53,308 bases of DNA. Source: Microtetraspora niveoalba (GTDB lineage: Bacteria; Actinomycetota; Actinomycetes; Streptosporangiales; Streptosporangiaceae). The stretch lies in contig NZ_BBYM01000047.1 in assembly GCF_001570405.1 (NCBI RefSeq), forward strand, positions 1-53,308, given 5' to 3'. Position 1 is the stretch's first letter; each line of letters begins with the position of its first letter. This document shows positions 26,834 to 32,332 of this stretch, piece by piece. A program made the position numbers and the translations under genes. The notes below the pieces were generated by a model, which saw only the letters and a program-made list of their open reading frames with translations, was not told the origin of the DNA and ran no database searches.

Positions 26834-26839
26834 TACCCT
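26834..26839 (+). promoter_or_regulatory. -10 box of a leaderless promoter (leuS leader peptide)
   Basis: TACCCT followed by 6 nt and an ATG at 26846. This places the transcript start at or near the leader peptide start. No clear -35 is visible. Confidence 0.45.
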
Positions 26840-26845
26840 TGGTAT

Positions 26846-26890
26846 ATGCGCGCCGCGACCCTGCTTGCCCGGCCGCATCGCCAGGGCTGA
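26846..26890 (+). CDS. Candidate leuS leader peptide (14 aa)
   Basis: A short frame reading [14 protein letters not shown], below usual gene-finding limits. It has adjacent Leu codons CTG-CTT at positions 6-7 and lies directly after a TACCCT box, so it would be the first thing translated on a leaderless transcript. Its stop codon falls in the loop of a strong hairpin. Position and Leu codons in front of leuS suggest a sensing peptide for charged leucyl-tRNA. Two Leu in 14 codons is only modest enrichment in such DNA, so this needs conservation evidence. Confidence 0.45.
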
Positions 26891-26906
26891 TTTCCCTCGA
26901 TGCGGC
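26872..26906 (+). promoter_or_regulatory. Leader hairpin around the leuS leader peptide stop
   Basis: GCCGCATCG (26872-26880) pairs perfectly with CGATGCGGC (26898-26906), with an inner AGGG/CCCT extension and the leader TGA in the loop. The 5' arm can instead pair with CGATGCGG at 26918-26925 inside the next hairpin, so two structures compete. Confidence 0.6.
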
Positions 26907-26907
26907 T

Positions 26908-26939
26908 GCCCCTCGTGCGATGCGGGGGGCTTTGTTGTG
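26908..26939 (+). terminator. Terminator-like hairpin in the leuS leader
   Basis: GCCCCTCG (26908-26915) pairs with CGGGGGGC (26923-26930; one T-G wobble) over a 7-base loop and is followed by TTTGTTGTG, the most T-rich tail of any hairpin in this window. It lies 52 bp before the leuS start, a position suited to attenuation. Confidence 0.55.
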
Positions 26940-26990
26940 AGCGGGCGCCCTCACCGTGCCTTTAAGGAAAGCATCCCTTCGGGAGTTGAC

Positions 26991-29453
26991 GTGGACGAGC
27001 TGGTGTACGACCCGCAGGCGCTGCAGGCCAAGTGGCTGCGGCGCTGGGAGGAGCTGAATCCCTTCGCGGCAGTGGAGGACGAGGCGGACACCAGGCCGCG
27101 CCGTTACATGCTCGACATGTTCCCGTACCCCTCGGGCGACCTGCACATGGGGCACGGAGAGGTGTTCGCCATCGGCGACGTCGTCGCGCGCTACTGGTTC
27201 CAGAAGGGCTACAACGTCCTGCACCCCATCGGGTGGGACTCCTTCGGCCTGCCCGCGGAGAACGCCGCGATCAAGCGCGACGCCCACCCCGCCGAGTGGA
27301 CCTACACCAACATCGAGACCCAGGCGAACTCCTTCAAGCGCTACGCCGTGTCCTTCGACTGGTCGCGGCGGCTGCACACCAGCGACGAGGACTACTACCG
27401 CTGGAACCAGTGGCTGTTCAACCGCTTCTACGAGCGCGGCCTGGCGTACCGCAAGGGCGGCCTGGTCAACTGGTGCCCGACCGACCAGACGGTGCTGGCC
27501 AACGAGCAGGTCGTGGCCGGAAAGTGCGAGCGCTGCGGATCGGACGTGGTCCGCCGCGAGCTGACGCAGTGGTACTTCAAGATCACTGACTACGCCGACC
27601 GACTGCTGGACGACATGTCCATGCTGGAGGGCGGCTGGCCGGAGCGCGTGCTCACCATGCAGCGCAACTGGATCGGCCGCTCCACCGGCGCCGACGTCCG
27701 GTTCCGCATCGAGGGCAGGGACGAGCCGGTCACGGTCTACACCACCCGCCCCGACACGCTGTACGGCGCGACGTTCTTCGTGGTCGCGGCCGACGCCCCG
27801 CTGGCGGAGGAGATCGTCGCCCCCGACCGGCGCGAGGCGCTGGAGGCCTACCGGGCCGAGGTCGCCAAGCTGTCCGACATCGAGCGCCTGTCCACCGAGA
27901 AGGAGAAGACCGGCGTCTTCCTGGGCGTTCACGCGATCAACCCGGTGAACGGAGAGCGCATCCCGGTCTGGGCGGCCGACTACGTCCTGTCCGACTACGG
28001 CCACGGCGCGATCATGGCGGTTCCCGCCCACGACCAGCGCGACCTGGACTTCGCGCTGAAGTTCGGGCTGCCGGTCAAGGTCGTCGTCCACACCGGCATG
28101 GCCGACCCGGGCGAGACCGGCGTCGCCACCCCGGGCGAGGGCAAGCTGGTCAACTCCGGGCCCCTGGACGGCCTGTCCAAGGCCGAGGCCATCGCCAAGA
28201 TCATCGAGGTGCTGGCGGAGCGGGACACCGGGCGGGCCGCGGTCAACTTCCGGCTGCGCGACTGGCTGCTGTCCCGGCAGCGCTTCTGGGGCACCCCGAT
28301 CCCGATCATCCACTGCCCCGACTGCGGCGAGGTGCCGGTCCCGGACGACCAGCTCCCGGTCAGGCTGCCCGACCTGCGCGGCGCCGACCTCAAGCCGAAG
28401 GGCGTCTCCCCGCTGGCCGCGGCCACCGACTGGGTCAACGTCGAGTGCCCCAAGTGCGGCGGCCCCGCCAAGCGGGACACCGACACGATGGACACCTTCG
28501 TCGACTCGTCGTGGTACTTCCTGCGCTACTGCTCGCCCGGGTACGAGGACGGGCCGTTCGACGAGGGCCGGGTCCGCCGCTGGGGTCCGATCGACCAGTA
28601 CGTGGGCGGCGTCGAGCACGCGGTGCTGCACCTGCTGTACTCGCGGTTCTTCACCAAGGTCCTGTTCGACATGGGCATGCTGACCTTCACCGAGCCGTTC
28701 CTGCGGCTGCTGAACCAGGGCCAGGTCATCAACCAGGGCAAGGCCATGTCCAAGTCGCTGGGCAACGGCGTCGACCTCGGCCAGCAGATCGACGCGTTCG
28801 GCGTGGACGCCGTCCGGCTGACCATGGTGTTCGCCGGGCCGCCCGAGGACGACATCGACTGGGCCGACGTCTCGCCGGCCGCCTCGCAGAAGTTCCTGGC
28901 CCGCGCCTTCCGCGTGATGGCCGAGGCGGGCGCGGCCTCCGCGCCGGGCGCCGACGTCGCCGGGGGCGACCAGGAGCTGCGCAAGGTCACCCACCGGACC
29001 ATCGACGAGGTCACCAAGCTGGTGGACGCCCACCGCTTCAACGTCGCCGTGGCCCGCATGATGGAGCTGACGTCGGCGGCGCGCAAGGCCATCGACTCCG
29101 GCCCCGGCGCCGGCGACCCCGCCGTACGCGAGGCCGCCGAGACGCTGGCGGTCATGTTGTCGCTGGTCGCGCCGTACACGGCGGAGGAGGGCTGGGAGCG
29201 GCTCGGCCACGCCCCGTCGGTCGCGCGGGCGGGCTGGCCGGTCGCCGACCCGGCGCTGCTGGTGCGCGAGTCGGTCACCTGCGTCGTACAGGTCGCGGGC
29301 AAGGTCCGCGACCGCCTGGAGGTGTCGCCGGAGATCTCCGCCGCCGACCTGGAGGCGCTGGCGCTGGGCAGCGAGAAGGTCCGGCCGTACCTGGACGGCG
29401 CGCCGCGCAAGGTGATCGTCCGCGAGCCGAAGCTGGTCAACATCGTCCCCTGA
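26991..29453 (+). CDS. leuS: Leucyl-tRNA synthetase
   Basis: An 820-residue class I synthetase that charges tRNA-Leu. The HIGH-equivalent HMGH is at ~52-55 in [12 protein letters not shown], and the KMSKS-equivalent AMSKS is at ~585-589 in [13 protein letters not shown]. The CP1 editing domain contains [12 protein letters not shown]. Cys pairs (CERCGSD; CPDCGE; CPKCGG) suggest zinc-binding modules. The C-terminal anticodon-binding and tail domains are present. GTG 26991 is supported by GGGAG five bases upstream. The frame is open 42 codons further, but that stretch is the structured leader. From memory, the N-terminal sequence differs from the longer LeuS of Streptomyces and Mycobacterium. 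Confidence 0.95.

Positions 29454-30685: not shown

Positions 30686-32332
<1,647 letters not shown>

Follow-up and report, generated by a model that had tools for sequence, protein, structure and literature searches.

How might the short stretch in front of a leucyl-tRNA synthetase gene of Microtetraspora niveoalba govern the expression of that gene? The window, the whole stretch of 53,308 nucleotides that was analysed, belongs to a genome of 8.5 Mb and carries leuS on the + strand (26991..29453; GTG start; 820 aa; Pfam PF13603, PF00133 and PF08264); the closest named leuS genes, those of Microbispora and Planotetraspora, share 89-90% identity with it. The original prediction had read the region upstream as an attenuator built of a TACCCT box, a 14-codon frame with adjacent Leu codons, a hairpin enclosing the stop codon of this frame and a GC terminator hairpin before leuS, and all of these parts are present, on the + strand. 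The -10-like box TACCCT (26834..26839), recognized by its sequence, lies 6 nt upstream of the leader ATG at 26846. The leader peptide frame (26846..26890), which has similar frames in relatives, occupies a predicted leaderless position and contains the presumed regulatory Leu codons CTG CTT (26861..26866), two where most leaders have three, the CTT being the conserved last codon. Hairpin 1 does enclose the leader stop codon (26888-26890) in its loop, but it folds with 10+4 bp at 26871..26907, rather than with 9+4 bp at 26872-26906 as had been proposed. It is followed by a predicted intrinsic terminator (26908..26938), a GC hairpin (26908-26930) with TTTGTTGTG directly 3' of it and a T-rich tail at 26931-26938. 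The Leu codons may in addition form a base stem, in which CCTGCTTGC (26860-26868) pairs with GTGAGCGGG (26937..26945). The small TCCC-TTC-GGGA hairpin that had been noticed at the leuS ribosome site exists as well (26974-26984); it is identical in three congeners (L002-L004) and absent from L007, of another genus. Downstream of leuS, a frame at 30731-32332 (+) matches a family 5 glycosyl hydrolase with a cellulose-binding domain.

Of 2000 dinucleotide shuffles of the 300 nt upstream, 8 contain a TANNNT-N6-RTG frame with Leu-Leu by chance. One terminator-like site was found where 0.2 would be expected. A sigma-70 consensus pair was looked for and none was found, so that the promoter is assigned by the conserved -10-like box only. 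We read the element as a predicted ribosome-sensing transcription attenuator, by which the supply of charged leucine tRNA would control leuS, and we put the probability of this sequence-based reading at about three in four. We infer as follows where transcription starts, what is sensed, in which direction control acts and how the signal is relayed. The leaderless mRNA would start at or beside the ATG (26846), and its 14-codon frame would immediately be taken up by a ribosome. By default, transcription would stop at the terminator at 26908-26938. When charged Leu-tRNA is scarce, the ribosome would stall on the Leu codons, chiefly on the rare CUU, and more polymerases would pass into leuS. The relay that we prefer is hairpin 1: a stalled ribosome would open its base, and the state of the hairpin may then alter terminator stacking or polymerase pausing.

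The alignment of upstream regions that the original prediction had called for bears out an attenuator-type leader, a Leu-Leu peptide in a predicted leaderless position together with a terminator, that is conserved in relatives; the leader frame and its Leu codons are conserved and both hairpins covary. Among 219 oriented leuS upstream regions, 119 hold a candidate leader and 116 a run of at least two Leu codons (108 distinct), whereas the frame with Leu-Leu is missing, as judged by the leader finder used here, in 103 of the 219. Because this finder required adjacent or near Leu codons and favoured a 6-nt spacing, Leu-Leu and that spacing are in part a product of the search, whereas the choice of third base is not; and because the sets include duplicates and close relatives, the counts are not independent. 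The spacing between box (TANNNT) and start is 6 nt in 109 of 116 leaders and 7 nt in the other 7; distances of 5-7 were permitted in the search, with preference for 6. The leader peptides, written here up to the stop, include MRSATLLLSGPRRP in Nonomuraea, MRAILLLS in Arthrobacter and MWRTLLLT in a Nocardioides assembly (L104). Frame and terminator are present jointly and lost jointly: a terminator scoring at least 16 within 300 nt upstream of leuS occurs in 113 of 115 regions with a leader vs 16 of 102 without, and several of these 16 hold variant leaders that the filter missed, e.g. MHNFLPLS. By eye, the regions of Microbispora and Planotetraspora (L031, L032 and L068) keep remnants of the element, and the leader ATG and the T-rich tail are gone.

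The third base of the last Leu codon follows a rule. Of 116 leaders, 100 end the run with CTT and 16 with CTC (93 and 15 among the 108 distinct ones), and in 77 leuS genes CTT makes up 1.6% of Leu codons, CTC 12.5% and CTG 82.8%. When each leader is compared with its own leuS gene, CTT ends the run in 46 of 52 comparable loci, vs 0.9 expected. The third codon from the end is mainly CTG (72/100). In the genome of the window, 59 tRNA matches were obtained; the seven long ones, which were read, include two tRNA-Leu (CAG and GAG anticodons). The anticodon GAG reads CUU through wobble.

None of 200 shuffles of the window's 74-nt hairpin region folds as stably as the native sequence (z -3.60), and the fold of the full 145-nt leader is unremarkable, with 20 of 200 shuffles equally good (z -1.26). 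In 44 leaders, picked by us from 91 non-redundant ones, the two helices are paired in 95.4% of cells, and changes on both sides of a pair fill 69 cells vs 20.5 in shuffles; none of 500 shuffles reaches this number, and controls with slid helices give 12 at most. For hairpin 1, such two-sided changes occur at 7 of 10 consensus pairs. Past the last Leu codon, 102 of 105 distinct leaders have a minimum-energy fold that ends in two neighbouring hairpins, and in these 102 the distance from the last Leu codon to hairpin 1 is 4-5 nt (92 leaders) and the gap between hairpin 1 and the terminator 0-1 nt (96 leaders); in the window these are 4 nt and 0 nt. If distances of 3-6 and gaps of up to 2 are allowed, the layout is present in 55 of the first 60 leaders, vs 57 of 600 with shuffled linkers. 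Since in most leaders hairpin 1 begins 4-5 nt past the last Leu codon, a stalled ribosome would open its base, and since it ends 0-1 nt before the terminator, its state could affect terminator stacking or polymerase pausing.

How widely is this layout distributed? Matches to the covariance model R1, which contains the hairpin layout, were counted before all genes at E 0.01 or better. Of 296 genomes in the class, which we take from the named relatives to be Actinomycetes, 216 have a match. In a sample of 197 genomes of the phylum, 27 genomes match R1 at E 0.001, 13 in the class and 14 outside it, and the latter consist of one strong match (61.8 bits, at G407:C81:33864-33958) and 13 weak ones (33.7 bits or less). 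R1 also picks up leuS leaders with the S. lividans leuL2 peptide or close variants, a peptide found in no row of our alignment A1; the genomes that carry it were taken for Streptomyces, and 22 distinct leaders were used for folding. In six of these Streptomyces-type loci (L235, L236, L238, L239, L245 and L246), the stretch before leuS looks similar around GCAGAGACGATCGATGGAGCTT, by eye. A search of a plasmid collection gave no match. Five more R1 matches in the genome of the window (L223 to L227, 18.6 bits or less) were judged by eye to be chance.

Nor is the layout confined to leuS. We fetched and typed 48 R1 matches and find 16 before leuS, 18 before cimA-like genes and 14 before ilvB; the typing script left 3 of the 48 untyped, whose frames proved to be ilvB, and the typing excluded nine leuS-type loci (L303, L308 to L315) and 30 further R1 loci. 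One of the cimA leaders is in the genome of the window itself: the second R1 match there (L222 1501-1607; G000:C3:200241-200347; 24.6 bits) has the leader MFYGLLIIGRRAG, with two hairpins that abut, ahead of a gene for citramalate synthase. Two cimA genes, this one among them, are named by NCBIfam, with citramalate synthase (TIGR00977) as best match, from partial sequences and below the whole-protein cut-off, and three ilvB genes as acetolactate synthase large subunit, also from partial sequences; the remaining cimA and ilvB assignments rest on a motif. The codons of both leader types match the end products of their own pathways. In leuS genes 3% of Ile codons are ATT, a codon present in 19 of 19 cimA leaders, and GTA occurs in 14 of 14 ilvB leaders, where CTT is seen too. 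The last two hairpins are 0-1 nt apart in 33 of 33 cimA and ilvB leaders; as R1 contains this layout and was used to find these leaders, their spacing is in part a product of the search, whereas their codons are not. In 11 of the 14 R1-type ilvB leaders (L258, L259, L267, L281, L283, L284, L286, L290, L292, L294, L295, L297, L299 and L301), a His codon and then TAG stand right at the hairpin. A limited literature search turned up no account of a cimA leader from Actinobacteria. Leaders of ilvB are already known there as attenuators (PMC1262725, PMC11857589, PMC10272879 and PMC13236596, each in the part available to us).

How would stalling on the Leu codons be relayed to the terminator? On the one hand the position sensor, from codon to hairpin 1, and the output, the terminator, are plain; on the other hand the link between them is not. 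Fold probabilities, which here are thermodynamic and not co-transcriptional, give the terminator a mean of 0.91 without a ribosome, and of 0.95 both when a ribosome is stalled at the last Leu codon and when it is at the stop codon (n=104; medians 0.999-1.0 in the three states). The terminator of the window itself has 0.97 in the absence of a ribosome and 0.995 when one is stalled. In the stalled state the terminator is near zero in L022, L078 and L109, the same three leaders that have no two-hairpin fold. As the terminator folds equally in all ribosome states, the models offer no route from stalling to terminator relief. A tentative generalization, which we hold to be possible but doubtful, is a class-wide attenuator that would work without an RNA antiterminator: a rare last codon (CUU or AUU; GUA and CUU for ilvB) and a relay hairpin at fixed distance, flush on the terminator, would set read-through, and the device would serve leuS, cimA and ilvB.

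Alternatively, the leader could be a classical attenuator of the trp type, in which the ribosome switches between the terminator and a mutually exclusive antiterminator, formed either by pairing of 26867-26880 or by pairing between the 3' arm of hairpin 1 and the 5' arm of the terminator. The order of leader, hairpin and terminator fits such a switch. The available part of PMC1262725 describes the leuS elements of S. avermitilis and S. coelicolor as predicted classical attenuators with antiterminator and terminator hairpins, and that of PMC11857589 presents an antiterminator model for C. glutamicum ilvBNC backed by mutations, with CUU and GUA as control codons. The pairing of 26867-26880 with 26918-26930, put forward in the original prediction, is nevertheless not conserved and fails on three counts: it does not covary in 44 leaders, where between 143 and 464 of 500 shuffles do at least as well as the real sequences in five measures; at two of its core pairs, 21 and 26 of the 44 sequences do not pair; and in the three congeners L002-L004 a mismatch (GCGAAGCGG) interrupts it. 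With a stalled ribosome, the 5' arm of the window's own terminator pairs with upstream RNA at 0.57 vs 0.46 in the shuffled control, which speaks for a switch, but over 104 leaders the mean is 0.23 vs 0.45 with shuffled linkers, and the arm-to-arm candidate was rejected as being, on average, below the shuffled control. A third candidate, in which the hairpin-1 arm would pair with the terminator loop, was rejected too, being no better than with shuffled loops and worse than cross-species pairs. In the 22 Streptomyces-type leaders as well, the terminator probability averages 0.987 to 0.998 across the three states tested. Thermodynamic models and covariation thus revealed no conserved antiterminator among three candidate pairings, and we consider a switch of this kind unlikely.

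Somewhat less probable again is control at the level of leuS translation or mRNA, as the sole mechanism or as a second layer, whereby the Leu run would pair between the terminator and leuS and be freed by the ribosome, as has been proposed for the LEU element of leuA. Such a stem stands out in the set of the own genus and near relatives (7 leaders; combined p 6e-6 vs shuffles, reversed-codon control 0.24) and in the Actinomadura-type set (14 leaders; 7e-4, control 0.44), and weakly in the Arthrobacter-type set (13 leaders; 0.04, control 1.0), where one of 13 leaders is below 0.05 by itself. Against this, it is not above shuffles in the Streptosporangium-type (0.998), Sphaerisporangium-type (0.51) and mixed (0.13) sets, and is about level with the reversed-codon control in Nonomuraea (0.017, control 0.042) and in the Nocardioides-type set (0.016, control 0.014). 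With two of eight sets supporting it, a third doing so weakly, three not and two about level with the control, the stem was rejected as a class-wide feature. Over 108 leaders, pairing with the own partner (-15.45) is stronger than cross-species pairing (-14.67; permutations sd 0.22, minimum -15.48 in 5000), a comparison that includes kinship and in which related sequences are not independent. In the window, moreover, the 3' side of the stem lies about 44 nt upstream of the leuS start, away from the ribosome site. Four leaders of the Arthrobacter type (L086, L087, L093 and L103) can form about 10-13 bp between the Leu codons and RNA past the terminator, with sequences that differ and yet match. 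That frame and terminator are a relic, or fix a constant leuS level without sensing leucine, as the terminator predicted to be stable in every ribosome state and the lack of the element upstream of leuS in many genomes might suggest, is very improbable given the last-codon rule, the fixed spacing, the coupling of frame and terminator and the end-product codons in cimA and ilvB leaders.

Our preferred reading remains transcription attenuation by a ribosome that would sense charged leucine tRNA. Points against it are the terminator that folds alike in every ribosome state, the statement of PMC1262725 that altered regulatory codons in the S. coelicolor ilvB leader left regulation unaffected, the window's run of two Leu codons where three are usual, and the 103 regions in which the finder saw no such frame. 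In GC-rich bacteria, the last-codon rule (CUU, AUU) would give a natural measure of tRNA charging at individual codons. The element known from Streptomyces is extended here to many families of its class, control of leuS, cimA and ilvB is joined in one layout, and this layout allows a stringent test of the ways in which a leader peptide could attenuate transcription without an antiterminator.

How does the element compare with known systems? T-boxes sense tRNA charging ahead of synthetase genes; the window element differs from them, in that no T-box match was found among the Rfam families in the window, in agreement with the lack of a T-box consensus noted originally, and Rfam as a whole gave no match at the gathering score and two unrelated weak ones at a relaxed threshold. 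With the trp-type attenuator it shares a leader peptide carrying codons for the regulated amino acid, whereas mutually exclusive antiterminator and terminator pairings were not found for three candidates by models and covariation. The LEU element of leuA, a run of Leu codons proposed to pair further down and to be freed by the ribosome (PMC1262725, in the part available), likewise has its Leu codons before a leucine gene with possible downstream pairing, yet the Leu codons of the window are not paired with the ribosome site and the downstream pairing is seen in some clades only. Like the ilvB attenuators of Actinobacteria, the window element combines a short branched-chain leader with a terminator. 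The control codons CUU and GUA of C. glutamicum match CTT and GTA of the ilvB leaders found here, but the C. glutamicum antiterminator, as the accessible text of PMC11857589 has it, overlaps the terminator, whereas R1-type ilvB leaders have two abutting hairpins; for S. coelicolor, PMC1262725 states in the part at hand that changing the regulatory codons of the ilvB leader left regulation unaffected. The closest counterpart is leuL2-leuS of Streptomyces, a leader described from RNA-seq in S. lividans as leaderless, with a hairpin and a U stretch (PMC8079986, in the part available). The element of the window comes from a different family, has two Leu codons instead of three and a longer peptide that reads into hairpin 1, and the antiterminator that the available 2005 text (PMC1262725) names for Streptomyces leuS was not found here. 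On the other hand the gene is the same, the peptide is Leu-rich (MRAVRLLLSEPR in S. lividans), a hairpin with a U-rich tail follows, the frame with its Leu run stands directly upstream of leuS, and both are captured by the shared model R1. Given that the same element has been described before Streptomyces leuS (PMC1262725, PMC8079986, as far as the excerpts go), the attenuator idea stands, and the window element is a genuine conserved homologue of that leader.
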